Part shown: positions 35,107 to 40,944 of the stretch, piece after piece
Position numbering within the stretch: position 1 is the first letter of the stretch
How the letters are laid out: every line of letters starts with the position of its first letter
Source of the DNA: Fibrobacter succinogenes
Lineage (GTDB): Bacteria; Fibrobacterota; Fibrobacteria; Fibrobacterales; Fibrobacteraceae
Assembly: GCA_902800815.1 (NCBI GenBank)
Contig: CADCGB010000005.1
Location: forward strand, 1 to 64,000
DNA length: 64,000 nt
Reading direction: 5' to 3'
The notes under the pieces: generated by a model
What the model was told of the DNA's origin: nothing
What the model saw: only the letters and a program-made list of their open reading frames with translations
Databases searched by the model: none
Program-made: the position numbers and the translations under genes

Positions 35107-35129
35107 TTTTTGGAAAATAGGAGGACGTG

Positions 35130-35882
35130 ATGAAAAAACTTTTTGCTGGCTGTATTGCCGTATCCTTTGCCGCGATGCTTGCTGCTTGTGGTGATGACGA
35201 CAGCGACTTTGCTTCACGTCCGGACGGGAAGGAATCGTCTAGTACCACGCCGTCTTCAAAGGTCATTGAGCCTGCCGAAGTGACGACTGGAACTATGACC
35301 GACTCCCGCGATGACCAGACATACAATACGGTCACAATCGGTACGCAGACCTGGATGGCGGAGAACCTCAACTACGAAACGGCGAATAGCTACTGCTTCA
35401 ATGATTACGCTACCTACTGCACCAAGTACGGCCGGTTTTATGCATGGGCTGCCGCTATGGACAGCGCGGGTACATGGAGCACAAACGGCAAGGGTTGCGG
35501 TCATGGCTCGAAATGCTCACCAACCGGTACTATACGAGGCATTTGTCCTGAGGGCTGGCACTTGCCTTCGCAAACGGAATGGGAAGTGCTTTTCACTGCA
35601 GTAGGCGGAATCGGCACGGCGGGCAAGATGCTCAAGTCTGCGACTGGCTGGAACGATAGTGGCAACGGCACGGATGCCTTCGCCTTCACTGCGCTCCCTG
35701 GCGGCAGCAGGTCCATGCTTGGGTTTTACTACATCGAGGGCATCTACGCGTACTTCTGGAGTTCCACTGAGTACGATAGCGAATACGCGTACTACATGCA
35801 CTTGAAAGAGGTCAACGACAATGCGATCCTGGACTACGACGACAAACGCTACGGGCTTACTGTCCGTTGCCTTAAGGACTAG
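35130..35882 (+). CDS. FISUMP-domain lipoprotein
   Basis: The product has 250 residues from ATG 35130 (TAGGAGGACGTG upstream). The lipoprotein signal ends LAAC (Cys 19-20). A short Ser/Thr linker leads into one FISUMP domain (about residues 55-250), with the hallmarks DQTYNTVTIGTQTWMAENLN, CTKYGRFYAWAAAMDS, ICPEGWHLPSQTEWEVL, ATGWNDSGNGTDAFAFTALP, FWSSTEYDSEYAYYMHL and the end LTVRCLKD. The domain is abundant in Fibrobacter surface proteins; its function is not established. The 3' end is part of a DNA repeat shared with the gene ending at 40134. Confidence 0.93.
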   Translation: MKKLFAGCIAVSFAAMLAACGDDDSDFASRPDGKESSSTTPSSKVIEPAEVTTGTMTDSRDDQTYNTVTIGTQTWMAENLNYETANSYCFNDYATYCTKYGRFYAWAAAMDSAGTWSTNGKGCGHGSKCSPTGTIRGICPEGWHLPSQTEWEVLFTAVGGIGTAGKMLKSATGWNDSGNGTDAFAFTALPGGSRSMLGFYYIEGIYAYFWSSTEYDSEYAYYMHLKEVNDNAILDYDDKRYGLTVRCLKD

Positions 35883-35947
35883 TCCCAAACTGATTAAAGT
35901 AGATATCGTTAGTGATTTAAGCGATTAATCATCGAATAAAAATTTTT

Positions 35948-35984
35948 AAGTGCCATTTCTCGTTTGGAAACGGCACTCTTTTTT
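35948..35984 (+). terminator. Terminator in repeat copy 1
   Basis: AGTGCCATTT and AAACGGCACT pair over 10 bp with one mismatch and are followed by CTTTTTT. Confidence 0.8.
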
Positions 35985-35998
35985 GGCACGGTTCTTGC
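35984..35998 (+). promoter_or_regulatory. Sigma-54-type (-24/-12) promoter, copy 1
   Basis: TGGCACG-N4-TTGC is an exact match to the sigma-54 core consensus. Transcription would start near 36010, but no intact gene follows directly, so it seems orphaned. Confidence 0.65.
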
Positions 35999-36118
35999 AA
36001 ATATAAGGGCATGAGGCAAATGATAAACCAAGCCTTCAAGGAGACTTATATTAAGCATCAATGTTGATGGGGCCTTTTTTATTATAAAACGCAAAGAGCG
36101 CAGAGCTATTCAGTAACG

Positions 36119-36310
36119 CTATAATGCCTTTATTTCTTCGATGGACAATCCGGATACCAAAGCGATTTTTTCGATGGGGTCGCCCATGTTCTTTGCCTCG
36201 CTTACAAGAAATTCCTCTGTAAAGATACTCAATTTTGTTGGTTCGAGGAGGAAATGTGCTTTTTTGATGCCTTTTTTGCGGGATAAGGGCCTAAAAGGGA
36301 AAAAATCATT
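36119..36310 (-). pseudogene. C-terminal remnant of an Rpn-like nuclease/transposase gene
   Basis: On the minus strand an open frame of 63 codons without a start ends with EFLVSEAKNMGDPIEKIALV and SGLSIEEIKAL. This resembles the C-terminal helices of Rpn/PD-(D/E)XK family transposase-like proteins, which often end in a GLSxEEIxxL motif. The N-terminal nuclease part is absent. It is probably a decayed fragment; the family is an inference from the tail only. Confidence 0.35.
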
Positions 36311-36366
36311 TTATAGCAAGTCACTTATTAAATTTTTGATTACATTTGTTTTCGGGTAGTTGTATT

Positions 36367-37332
36367 ATGAGACTCTTTTTCCTGCTAATTACGTTCTTGG
36401 CTAGTTTGGTGATGGCGACGCATGTTGCCGTCCTTGAGACTGTTGCGGAAGAAAATGCGAAAGACTGTGTTTCGTTGACTGACCGCCGGTATTTGACGAA
36501 CGTGCTCCGTGAGCAGGCTGTCCAGCTGCTCCCTGTGGAGCAGAATTTTGTCATCATGACGCGCGACAACATCAGCGTGATGCTCCCGCCGGGCATGGCC
36601 CTCGAAGATTGCGAGGGTAGTTGCCTTGCGGAGACCGGCCGAAATATTTCCGCGGACTTTATATGCCAGGCGCGTGTCGGAAAATTCGGCGGCATGCTTA
36701 CATTGTCGGCGGAACTCTACGAGACGGCGGGGAACAAACTTATTGCGAGTTTCAACGGGCGAGGGGCCGATGTGAACGAACTTCTTGCGCTCATTGAGCA
36801 GAAATCGCCAGACTTTTTCCGTAGAATTAAGGACTTGGCAGTACCTGCTGTTGTGGCAGAAAATGAGACGGAAACGGACAATGCGGGCGTTGTGGATTCA
36901 ACAAGTACGGATGCAGAAAAACCTGCTACGGAAGAGGTAAAATCCGCCTCGGCAGAACCGGAGGAAGTTAAACCTGAAGAAACGAATGCGGCAAGTTCCC
37001 GTGCGGAAATTGCTTACAATGAATTGGATGGCAAGGAAAGTGATGCAAAGGTGGGCGAGAGTGTGCCCACGAATATAGATGATGAATCGGCAAAGAAGGG
37101 CGGGATTCATTGGATTCCGTTAAGCATTAGCGCTGTTGTGACGGCGGTAGGTGTGACGGCTGCTATTGTTGGGAACCAGAAGGCGAAAGAAGAATCCGAA
37201 AAGACGTATACGACCGTAGAAGAATACGAGAAGAACCTTCAGGATGTGAAGGATTATCAGACTACGCGTACGGTGGGGACAATTATTGCCATTGTCGGTG
37301 CGATCGGCATTGGCTTGAGTATTGCTTTTTAG
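36367..37332 (+). CDS. Exported protein with TolB/CsgG-like N-domain and two C-terminal membrane segments
   Basis: The product has 321 residues from ATG 36367. The signal peptide is RLFFLLITFLASLVMA. Residues 17-145 contain VAVLETVAEENAKDCVSLTD, RRYLTNVLREQAVQLLPVE, VIMTRDNISVML, CEGSCLAETGRNISADFICQ and MLTLSAELYETAGNKLIASF. This matches the alpha/beta pattern of TolB-N/CsgG/LpoB-like outer-membrane regulators, which sense or count envelope components. Residues 160-240 are a disordered Glu/Ala/Ser segment. Two hydrophobic helices follow (WIPLSISAVVTAVGVTAAIV and TIIAIVGAIGIGLSIAF). The function is unknown. The next lipoprotein gene starts within 10 nt, so the two are probably co-expressed. 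Confidence 0.7.
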   Translation: MRLFFLLITFLASLVMATHVAVLETVAEENAKDCVSLTDRRYLTNVLREQAVQLLPVEQNFVIMTRDNISVMLPPGMALEDCEGSCLAETGRNISADFICQARVGKFGGMLTLSAELYETAGNKLIASFNGRGADVNELLALIEQKSPDFFRRIKDLAVPAVVAENETETDNAGVVDSTSTDAEKPATEEVKSASAEPEEVKPEETNAASSRAEIAYNELDGKESDAKVGESVPTNIDDESAKKGGIHWIPLSISAVVTAVGVTAAIVGNQKAKEESEKTYTTVEEYEKNLQDVKDYQTTRTVGTIIAIVGAIGIGLSIAF

Positions 37333-37341
37333 GAGGAGGTG

Positions 37342-40134
37342 ATGATGAAGATTTTGAATGCAAATTGTCGTCTCCTTGCGGTATTGTTGTTGCTTGTTCT
37401 CGAGGCCTGTACGGATTATGCCTCTAAAATGGAAGATGATTTCGAAGAATGGAAAGCTGCGCAAGCGCAGTCGAGTGAAGGTGAAGTAGTTGTGTCTTCC
37501 TCCAGTATCACACCGAAGTCGCGTTCTAACGAGACAGATGTGTCTAGTAGCAGTGTCCCCGAAGGGTATGTAGACCCGTCGACTGTAGTTACGGGATCTG
37601 TAACTGACGAGCGTGACGGTCAGACTTATAAGACCGTTACCATAGGCACGCAGACTTGGATGGCTCAGAACCTTAATTACGAAACGGCAAACAGCGCTTG
37701 CTATAATGACGAGGCCTCTAACTGTACCAAGTACGGCCGCCTTTACACCTGGGCCGCTGCGATGGACAGCTCGGGAACATGGTCTACAAACGGCAAGGGC
37801 TGTGGCTACGAAAAAGAGTGTTCGCCGACTTATCCGGTGCGCGGAGTCTGTCCCGATGGGTGGCATCTGCCTACAAGTACAGAATTTAGTGTGTTGGAAC
37901 AAGCCGTCGGGGGACAATCGACCGCGGGCAAGATGCTTAAGTCCACTAGCGGCTGGTACAACAGCGGATATGGAACGGATGCCTATTCCTTTGCAGCATT
38001 ACCCGGTTTCGATGCCTATATTGCGACCTTCTGGAGTTCTACTGAGCGCGATAGCAGAGACGCAATCCGCATGGACTTGCTTGCCCAATCCGACGAAACA
38101 ATCCTGACCCAATACCACAGGAACTCCTTCTACTCTGTCCGTTGCGTTAAGGACGAAAACAGTTCTAGTATCACTCCGCAATCGAGCTCCAGCGCGACAA
38201 GTGTGTCTAGTAGTAGTGTAAAATCAAGTAGTTCGGCGCCTTCGTCGAGTTCAGAAATCAAACTTGAAACTTTGACCGATGAACGAGATGGTCAAACGTA
38301 CAAGATTGTTACCATAGGCTCTCAAACTTGGATGGCGGAAAATTTAAACTATGAAACAGACAATAGCTACTGTTACAACGACAGTCCATCCAACTGCACC
38401 AAGTATGGTCGCCTTTACACATGGAATGCGGCGAAAATGGCTTGTCCTTCCGGTTGGCATTTGCCGGCTCTGGCTGAATTTGACACTTTGTATGTCGCAG
38501 TCGGAGGAAAATCGTCGGCAGGAGCGGCACTCAAGTCAGTTAGTGGTTGGATTGTAGATGATGAATGTAAAGGCAGTGAAAAGTGTGTAAGCGATTATGA
38601 GGATGCATACTTGTTTACGGTGTTGCCTGCTGGAGTTAGGCGCAACGGGACTTATGGTGGCGAGGGTGGCGATGCACGCTTTTGGACATCTTCTGAGTAC
38701 AGTAGCGACGATGCTTTCCTCACGTATATGGAATCCTATTATAACGAAGCGAATGATTATTACGATAGTAAGGATGCCGGGTACTCTCTCCGTTGTATCA
38801 AGGGTGAGGTCGCAATAGCTAAATCGTCTTCCTCTGTCTCTCCGCAGTCAAATTTGAGTTCTAGTAGTAAGGAAGTTTCCTCTAGTAGTGAAATTGTCAA
38901 GTCATCTTCTTCGGGGAAAGCTTCGTGGGCGTATCTAAACCCTGCTATATCTTATGGAGAAATGACAGATGACCGCGATGGACAAGTTTATAAGACTGTT
39001 GTAATTGGCGAACAGACTTGGATGGCAGAGAATCTGAATCTTGAAACGGCGAATAGTTACTGCTACAATGACTCTACAAAATATTGCGATAAGTATGGGA
39101 GACTATATACGTGGGCTGATGCGTTGGAGGCTTGCCCAGCAGATTGGCATTTGCCAGATTCTACAGAAAGTGAAAAACTTTTATCTACAGTTGGTGGAGA
39201 ATATGTTGCAGGAACAAATCTCAAGTCCATAAGCGATTGGGTGGAAAATGGAAACGGAGGTGTTGATACTTATGGTTTCTCGGCAATTCCTGCTGGTTAC
39301 AAAAGTAAGGAAGGAGAATATGGAGGATTGAGTGAATATGCAAATTTCTGGCTTTCCGCTGAATATAGTAGTGAAAAGGGACGTCTAATGTTTTTTTATT
39401 ACGGAGGCCGTGGCGGGATGATTGGTTATAATTACAAGAATGAGTTGTATTCTATTCGTTGTTTGAAAAATGAAACTCCTAAGTCTTCTTCTAGCATTTC
39501 CTCGTCTTCCAGCAAGGCTTCATGGGCGTATTTAAATCCTTCGTATTCTTATGGAGAAATGACGGATGATCGTGATGGACAGGTTTATAAGACCGTTGAA
39601 ATTGGTGAACAAACTTGGATGGCGGAAAATCTCAATTATGCCTATTTATCGTTAGAATCAGACTCAGATTCGTTGAGTTTTTGCTATGATAATGATCCTC
39701 TAAATTGCTCGAAATATGGTCGATTATATCGATGGAGTGCTGCAATGGATAGCGCAGGAATGTTCAGTACTACAGGAAAGGGGTGTGGATATTCGGTTTG
39801 CTTGCCAACAGGAAATGTTCGCGGAGTTTGTCCAGAGGGGTGGCATTTGCCTAGTAAAAATGAGATTTTTAACTCTGATTATTCCAATCCTATTTATTGG
39901 CAAGATTCTATTTCTAGTTGGTATATGAGTGGCTTGACAATACCTGCTTCTGGATATATGGGTCAAATAGGAGGATTTGATTATAAGAATAAATATGCTG
40001 GGCTTTGGACTAGTTCTGAGGTTGCTTCAGATGGTTATGCTTTTTCGCTCTTTTTGCGTTATGATGACTCCTTTACCCGAAAAGATGGTGATAATAAGAA
40101 CAATGGTTATTCCGTCCGTTGCGTTAAGGACTAG
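37342..40134 (+). CDS. Lipoprotein with four tandem FISUMP domains
   Basis: The product has 930 residues. AGGAGGAGG precedes GTG-ATG-ATG; ATG 37342 is used here and 37345 is equally possible. The lipobox is LVLEAC. Four FISUMP domains start near residues 86, 308, 538 and 737. Each begins with D[E/D]RDGQ[T/V]YK and IG[T/S/E]QTWMA[E/Q]NLN and ends with [Y/S][S/V][V/L/I]RC[V/I/L]K. They are separated by linkers rich in SSSS. Domains 3 and 4 share a near-identical lead-in, ASWAYLNPxxSYGEMTDD, pointing to a recent internal duplication. Codons of domains 3 and 4 are much more AT-rich than those of domains 1 and 2. The protein is probably a surface-exposed multivalent display protein; its ligand is unknown. 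Confidence 0.92.
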   Translation: MMKILNANCRLLAVLLLLVLEACTDYASKMEDDFEEWKAAQAQSSEGEVVVSSSSITPKSRSNETDVSSSSVPEGYVDPSTVVTGSVTDERDGQTYKTVTIGTQTWMAQNLNYETANSACYNDEASNCTKYGRLYTWAAAMDSSGTWSTNGKGCGYEKECSPTYPVRGVCPDGWHLPTSTEFSVLEQAVGGQSTAGKMLKSTSGWYNSGYGTDAYSFAALPGFDAYIATFWSSTERDSRDAIRMDLLAQSDETILTQYHRNSFYSVRCVKDENSSSITPQSSSSATSVSSSSVKSSSSAPSSSSEIKLETLTDERDGQTYKIVTIGSQTWMAENLNYETDNSYCYNDSPSNCTKYGRLYTWNAAKMACPSGWHLPALAEFDTLYVAVGGKSSAGAALKSVSGWIVDDECKGSEKCVSDYEDAYLFTVLPAGVRRNGTYGGEGGDARFWTSSEYSSDDAFLTYMESYYNEANDYYDSKDAGYSLRCIKGEVAIAKSSSSVSPQSNLSSSSKEVSSSSEIVKSSSSGKASWAYLNPAISYGEMTDDRDGQVYKTVVIGEQTWMAENLNLETANSYCYNDSTKYCDKYGRLYTWADALEACPADWHLPDSTESEKLLSTVGGEYVAGTNLKSISDWVENGNGGVDTYGFSAIPAGYKSKEGEYGGLSEYANFWLSAEYSSEKGRLMFFYYGGRGGMIGYNYKNELYSIRCLKNETPKSSSSISSSSSKASWAYLNPSYSYGEMTDDRDGQVYKTVEIGEQTWMAENLNYAYLSLESDSDSLSFCYDNDPLNCSKYGRLYRWSAAMDSAGMFSTTGKGCGYSVCLPTGNVRGVCPEGWHLPSKNEIFNSDYSNPIYWQDSISSWYMSGLTIPASGYMGQIGGFDYKNKYAGLWTSSEVASDGYAFSLFLRYDDSFTRKDGDNKNNGYSVRCVKD

Positions 40135-40199
40135 CCCTAAACTGATTAAAGTAGATAAATCAGTGATTTAATCGATTAATCATTGAATAAAAATTTTTT

Positions 40200-40236
40200 A
40201 AGTGCTGTTTTCTTCGCGGAAACGGCTCTTTTCTTT
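40200..40236 (+). terminator. Terminator-like hairpin in repeat copy 2
   Basis: AAGTGCTGTTTT and GAAACGGCTCTT pair at about 9 of 12 positions, followed by TTCTTTT. It is weaker than in copy 1. Confidence 0.5.
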
Positions 40237-40251
40237 TGGCATGGTTCTTGC
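40237..40251 (+). promoter_or_regulatory. Sigma-54-type promoter, copy 2
   Basis: TGGCATG-N4-TTGC differs from the core consensus at one position. It would start transcription near 40263, some 40 nt before the gene at 40302. Confidence 0.65.
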
Positions 40252-40301
40252 AAATATAGGGCATAAGACAAATGATAAACCAAGCCCGCAGGGAATGACC
40301 G

Positions 40302-40625
40302 ATGAATACTAGCCAAACAGCACAAGAAAATGTTATATTGCCTTTTGGCAATATGATGTACCCCTTTATGACACTTGATGATAATGCAGAAATTGTCCAT
40401 TCTGAAATGGGCAAGGACGGTCGTGTCAAGGTGTATATTGAAAAGCCCGATGCAAAGGACGGCTTCCATCGGGCAACATGCTATTTACCCTCCTATACAT
40501 GGGAAGATATATTCGGTTTTTCAGATGAGGAAATCGATCGCTATAAGAAAGTGATTGAGTCTACAGCTCATATGATAATGGAATTCTCTCAGAAAGGCGG
40601 GTTTAGCAATGCCGCAAATCTTTAA
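40302..40625 (+). CDS. Small hypothetical protein preceding a truncated DUF4160 gene
   Basis: The product has 107 residues, soluble and acidic. It starts MNTSQTAQENVILPFGNMMY, has a beta-rich middle (VKVYIEKPDAKDGFHRATCY) and a helical end (DEEIDRYKKVIESTAHMIME). I do not recognise the family. Its last 17 nt overlap the start of a DUF4160-like gene, an arrangement typical of two-gene toxin-antitoxin-like modules in which DUF4160 is one member. A sigma-54-type promoter lies upstream. A toxin-antitoxin role is inferred only from this overlap. Confidence 0.65.
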   Translation: MNTSQTAQENVILPFGNMMYPFMTLDDNAEIVHSEMGKDGRVKVYIEKPDAKDGFHRATCYLPSYTWEDIFGFSDEEIDRYKKVIESTAHMIMEFSQKGGFSNAANL

Positions 40626-40653
40626 AAGAGGATCCTTCTGTTTTTTCGATGTG

Positions 40654-40668
40654 GAGCGGGAAAAGGGA
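40654..40668. repeat. 15-bp copy of the tRNA-Gly 3' end (possible attachment-site scar)
   Basis: GAGCGGGAAAAGGGA here is identical to 40871-40885, which is the 3' end of tRNA-Gly(GCC) on the minus strand. The two copies are 217 bp apart. The copy lies exactly at the breakpoint of the DUF4160 fragment. Confidence 0.65.
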
Positions 40669-40670
40669 AT

Positions 40671-40831: not shown

Positions 40832-40870
40832 AAACGAAAAAAGACACCATAAAGGTGTCTTTTTCGTTTA
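40832..40870 (-). terminator. Strong terminator after tRNA-Gly
   Basis: TAAACGAAAAAAGACACC and GGTGTCTTTTTCGTTTA form a stem of about 17 bp with one bulged A, directly after the tRNA 3' end. It is symmetric and may act in both directions. Confidence 0.88.
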
Positions 40871-40871
40871 G

Positions 40872-40944
<73 letters not shown>

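Follow-up and report, generated by a model that had tools for sequence, protein, structure and literature searches.

What does an intergenic unit do that occurs twice, each time behind a FISUMP gene, in a 64,000-nucleotide stretch of Fibrobacter succinogenes (assembly GCA_902800815.1, contig CADCGB010000005.1, positions 1 to 64,000; hereafter the window)? The two copies, at 35864–36042 and 40116–40294, had been noticed in a sequence-only reading, and their alignment bears out the duplication, with 85% identity over 179 bp and an identical order of parts. That reading saw sigma-54-type promoters in both copies and proposed that the unit might be the boundary of a mobile or recombining cassette. 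The answer favored here is that each copy would combine a sigma-54 (RpoN) promoter and an enhancer of its own, the latter formed by tandem TGATTAATCA-type dyads located about 80–120 bp upstream of the start; an AAA+ enhancer-binding protein (EBP) would bind these dyads, contact the sigma-54 polymerase on TGGCAYG-N4-TTGC, and remodel it. The same element would drive spoVG and many scattered toxin–antitoxin, Rpn-nuclease, and abortive-infection genes across the Fibrobacteraceae, and since it stands ahead of all of them, these genes would constitute one regulon, a reading to which we assign a probability of roughly 0.8. The sequences themselves show the element with its geometry and conservation, the genes behind it, and how one candidate activator (D, below) is distributed and how its helix has changed; binding, activation, which protein activates, and the role in physiology are inferred from them.

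The element is about 125 bp long and comprises three aligned blocks: the tandem TGATTAATCA-type dyads, a GC dyad set in AT-rich sequence (TGCCG-TTTT...AAAA-CGGCA), and the core, TTGGCAYG-N4-TTGCA. Its upstream 40 bp, the upstream activating sequence (UAS), contain two adjacent dyads of TGATTWA/TAAATCA half-sites. The pattern TGGCAYG-N4-TTGC has 18 matches in the 3.15-Mb genome versus 2 for the reversed control pattern, and the 40-bp UAS pattern has been matched 26 times in 111 genomes of the family and never by its reversed control; a sigma-54 core follows downstream in 25 of these 26 cases. A core of the form TGGCAYR-N4-TTGCW, with GG/GC at −24/−12, is present in both window copies and in 84 relatives. 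The last dyad and the TGG, measured in 84 units, are 52–57 bp apart in 73 of them and 63–66 bp apart in the other 11, with none at 58–62 bp (values of 42–44 bp at the spoVG loci L361, L395, and L397 come from a secondary half-site picked by the regular expression, and are not usable). The gap between both spacing classes would correspond to one helical turn, as required of an activator that must face the polymerase. The arms of the middle GC dyad are perfect over 5 bp in 33 of the 84 units (about 2 in shuffles). A chance origin of the element is rejected on the reversed-control counts for the core and the UAS and on the shuffle count for the spoVG loci given below. This dyad had been described as a hairpin terminator; it does score like one and may still terminate transcription, but it belongs to the element throughout the family, even where no gene converges on it. 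For example, it is kept in a third, partial copy (78%; G000:C15:23238–23364), which has a divergent gene upstream and lies immediately upstream of an intact Rpn/PDDEXK_2 gene.

Downstream genes have been read for 85 units, 33 of which precede spoVG. An independent set of named spoVG loci gave a sigma-54 site upstream of the gene in 44 out of 47, when 0.4 would be expected from shuffles. The tally of the remaining 52 units, made with Pfam and PADLOC, includes about 15 with an Rpn-type gene downstream (PDDEXK_2 or YhgA-like; three by similarity only) and about 25 that precede genes of the toxin–antitoxin type, these being 14 HigB/Gp49 together with YafQ–RelB, ToxN, PIN, BrnA/CopG, and antitoxin-like genes with a helix-turn-helix (HTH). 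The rest consists of four DUF3800 genes, three modules of the DUF4160 type found in the window, one gene each of AbiD, GIY-YIG, and DUF6169, and two units without a clear gene. AbiD (Abi_2) and AbiQ/ToxN were recognized by PADLOC; Rpn was not. The target class is not pure, because in g4, which forms with its sister genus g2 the termite-gut Fibrimonas (Fibrobacter being g1), the targets include a shikimate-kinase-like protein and Rpn-like, ORF6N, Bro-N, and DUF7718 proteins. In several of the units ahead of Rpn genes, the ATG lies 12 nt past the TTGC, that is, at the predicted +2, which would leave the mRNAs of these genes almost without a leader; copy 1 of the window retains such an ATG. Separately, a common stretch (GSRVLPLCGAS... 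if translated) has been seen between the unit and DUF3800 or toxin–antitoxin genes at L145, L176, L187, L194, L197, and L198.

With a sequence-only model, the unit has been detected in 108 of the 111 Fibrobacteraceae genomes; outside the family, only weak matches (E 1e-2 to 2e-4) appear, in 8 of 49 genomes. Its use spans rumen and termite-gut relatives of Fibrobacter, and a record of Candidatus Fibrimonas termitidis carries the same spoVG unit as one g4 genome. By reading, several outgroup genomes have sigma-54-like cores ahead of spoVG that lack the UAS of the family, so spoVG may have come under sigma-54 before the enhancer of the family arose. Two further observations concern promoters of other kinds: a third enhancer type, made of GGACAC repeats, replaces TGATTAATCA at the Fibrobacter spoVG promoters L368, L374, L375, L376, and L388, and other good sigma-54 cores without this UAS lie in G000 ahead of gltB-, glnB-, dapF-, and htpG-looking genes (L018, L009, L008, and L017).

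Which protein might act on this element? The sequence-only reading called for rpoN and enhancer-binding regulators and took a genome lacking rpoN as its refutation; both are present in G000: rpoN scores 324 bits against the TIGR02395 cut-off of 277 (also PF04552), and eight EBPs with a sigma-54 interaction domain give strong matches. Together with the enrichment of the core, the helical-phase spacing of the enhancer, and the conservation ahead of spoVG, this supports the promoter assignment. Across eight Fibrobacteraceae genomes, only three EBP orthogroups (B, C, and D) are universal; these account for the only three EBPs of G103 and G110, two genomes in which the unit is still present. Group C was discarded as activator, since the regulon occurs in g4 and no member of the group has been detected there. 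Also discarded, as the general activator, was L054, an EBP with a CARF domain found in G000 and G102 and absent from most unit-bearing genomes. The best candidate is D, a sensor-less EBP of about 290–345 amino acids with an N-terminal AAA+ domain, located at G000:C10, and we consider its role as activator somewhat better than an even bet. D occurs in each of the family's 11 genera and, among twelve further genomes, is missing only from G013; it has no NCBIfam equivalog match at cut-off.

The candidacy of D also draws on its change together with the enhancer. In g4 and g2, GATT half-sites have given way to GTTT/GTCT throughout the regulon as sampled. The UAS of g4 is of the GTTTAAAC/GTCTAGAC type whether or not the unit precedes spoVG, its enhancer reading GTGTTTAAACAC or GTGTCTAGACAC in the units sampled. 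The recognition helix of D reads SRG[SC]L[CN]Y[QH] wherever a genus has TGATTAATCA, and SR[GS].LYY[KRY] in g4 and g2, with YY[KR] in g4 taking the place of [CN]Y[QH]; in g2 the helix was read first, and the enhancer, read afterwards, contained GTCTAAAC. If D reads the dyads, the Fibrobacter protein should favor TGATTAATCA and the Fibrimonas protein TGTTTAAACA. D is a likely activator, rather than a proven one. No autoregulation of the EBP genes is predicted, because no GATTAATC turned up in the vicinity of the eight that G000 has. As for other EBPs, several from g4 and g2 end after the AAA+ lid, seemingly without an HTH (L272, L274, L275, L277, L278, and L279). In addition, L054 (2254–3741, G000:C7) is RtcR-like and has a divergent sigma-54 promoter with small unknown genes downstream; this promoter has the middle GC dyad in common with the element, but other palindromes (TACGAAAAATTTTTCGTA).

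Some observations weigh against the proposed regulon and its activator. Many of the 84 units are orthologs, and their count is not one of independent cases. At many toxin–antitoxin targets, a sigma-70-like promoter is located between the unit and the gene, which blurs the sigma-54 share of expression, and neither UAS type is present at some six spoVG promoters (L368, L374, L375, L376, L388, and L391), of which the majority carry GGACAC repeats instead. The UAS of G109 (g11) is mixed. Furthermore, given that g2 and g4 are sisters, the joint change of UAS and D helix amounts to a single event, and on that same branch the helix of group B is also slightly altered, from A to T. This alteration can be read in favor of another universal EBP, such as the group B protein, an AtoC/NtrC-like response regulator (L049), activating a real sigma-54 promoter in place of D. 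Group B is present in nearly all sampled genomes of the family, including G013, where D was not detected, but G013 is a draft genome in which a missing D says little. On the other hand, group B has orthologs in families f2 and f3, which are without this UAS, and its changed position varies (A, S, or T) among genera that keep GATTAATC, whereas D changes only where the UAS has changed; we thus regard group B as a rather unlikely activator.

SpoVG proteins are nucleic-acid binders. As spoVG heads the regulon and tandem dyads are possible repressor sites, the dyads might instead be an operator at which SpoVG itself, an antitoxin, or some other repressor binds, with the EBP bound elsewhere. However, their distance is typical for an EBP and their spacing is in whole turns, and only the middle dyad is otherwise conserved for an EBP to use, so an operator seems quite improbable. 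Even less credit is given to the cassette boundary, according to which FISUMP or toxin cassettes would duplicate or move via the stretch and the sigma-54 match would be secondary. In favor of this view, the stretch is found beside genes of mobile type whose loci are unrelated, and both window copies include the end of a FISUMP gene as well as the 5′ start of a coding sequence; but nearly all genomes of the family have the element ahead of spoVG, a core gene, the enhancer–core spacing is strictly helical, the flanks vary between genomes, and the UAS has switched across the sampled units of one genus, as a protein-binding site would. The conserved blocks are those expected of an activator-dependent promoter, and a boundary as main function is neither supported nor needed to explain them; the element could still serve as a homology patch for recombination. 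Returning to the sigma-54 regulon, a single shared control protein seems to govern these scattered, mobile toxin genes. A broader proposal is that a family-specific sensor-less EBP acts with sigma-54 as the common on-switch of SpoVG and of a mobile arsenal of toxin–antitoxin, Rpn, and abortive-infection genes, that arriving modules are captured via the 125-bp element, and that enhancer and activator were re-specified together in the termite-gut Fibrimonas; this we advance tentatively, at slightly less than even odds.

The closest known systems are the sigma-54 promoters of the NtrC/PspF class, which have the same −24/−12 core, RpoN, upstream tandem dyads in helical phase, and AAA+ activators with a Fis HTH. 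Unlike them, the element has a nearly fixed enhancer–promoter distance and a conserved GC dyad in between, and its targets are spoVG and scattered toxin or anti-phage-type genes, not operons for metabolism, motility, or stress. D resembles PspF in its size (around 300 amino acids), its AAA+ plus Fis HTH composition, and its lack of a sensor domain, but scores 204 bits against the PspF cut-off of 444 (NCBIfam) and would serve a different gene set; it adjoins lysC in several genomes, and no pspA has been recognized in the flanks inspected. Another example is RtcR, the CARF-domain EBP of the RNA-repair operon (PMC7790460; PMC9650030), which also links sigma-54 to a response to toxin or RNA damage; D, in contrast, has no CARF domain. 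Rpn proteins (for the family, see PMC5350276) have been reported as toxin–antitoxin and anti-phage proteins (PMC10327210), in a text that does not mention sigma factors when searched for them. In the present units, PDDEXK_2/YhgA-like genes are the commonest single-gene targets, but they stand behind a dedicated sigma-54 element, several in the near-leaderless arrangement described above. Neither a sigma-54 regulon in Fibrobacter nor a sigma-54 toxin–antitoxin regulon was found in searches of open-licence papers. Toxin–antitoxin modules are usually viewed as self-regulated selfish units behind ordinary promoters. If the proposal is true, dozens of unrelated toxin and anti-phage-type modules, plus a core regulator, would be under one all-or-none sigma-54 enhancer, a clear case of a host collectively controlling its mobile toxin repertoire, and the signal that arms such genes would become testable in major fiber-degrading gut bacteria.

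Within the window, the two copies begin to match some 20 bp short of the stop codon that closes the FISUMP gene upstream of each, and cease to match about 30 bp past the predicted transcription start; for this reason they look like a local duplication that includes the FISUMP gene end. The FISUMP association has not been observed in the other units inspected. Judged by its parts, copy 1 is a decaying duplicate. It begins inside the last 20 bp or so of a FISUMP (Fib_succ_major) gene on the plus strand (35127–35882; PF09603, E 8e-30), and one half-site of its aligned UAS (35891–35931, plus strand) is damaged, from TAAATCA to TATCGTTA. Then come the middle GC dyad (35948–35978), which has a terminator-like score on the minus strand too, and the core TGGCACGGTTCTTGC (35984–35998, plus strand), with a predicted start at about 36010. 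The sequence-only reading held that this copy had lost its gene, and what remains agrees with that: a truncated 18-codon open reading frame (ORF), MRQMINQAFKETYIKHQC followed by a stop, with its ATG at the predicted +2 (36011–36067, plus strand), and a remnant similar to an Rpn/PDDEXK_2 C-terminus on the minus strand (36119–36271; 68% over 25 amino acids to L266).

Copy 2, on the contrary, reads as an intact unit ahead of one intact gene, and scores 93 bits with the sequence model versus 79 bits for copy 1. Its upstream FISUMP gene encodes 931 amino acids (37339–40134, plus strand) and ends inside the repeat; the UAS, TGATTAAAGTAGATAAATCAGTGATTTAATCGATTAATCA, is intact (40143–40182, plus strand), and is followed by the middle GC dyad (40204–40226) and, 54 bp past the UAS, by the core TGGCATGGTTCTTGC (40237–40251, plus strand), which predicts a start at about 40263. 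Both copies terminate in ATGATAAACCAAGCC, which was ruled out as a regulatory box, being the 5′ end of the coding sequence in L101 (MKQMINQARREQ...). In the window this segment (40263–40298, plus strand), coding in G036 (L101), is degenerate; translation of copy 2 must start at 40302 because the original start codon is ATA and a stop follows after 11 codons. Of the two-gene module attributed to this copy, the first gene holds (40302–40625, plus strand; 107 amino acids, 96% identical to L101/L108, without Pfam family), but its partner is broken after its first 10 codons or so (40609–40640, plus strand); the partner is DUF4160 (PF13711) in L101, and the window ORF matches no family. Finally, the 3′ end (40870–40885) of a tRNA-Gly gene on the minus strand (40871–40944) recurs about 215 bp off, at 40653–40669, exactly at the DUF4160 break, in what looks like an integration or deletion scar.

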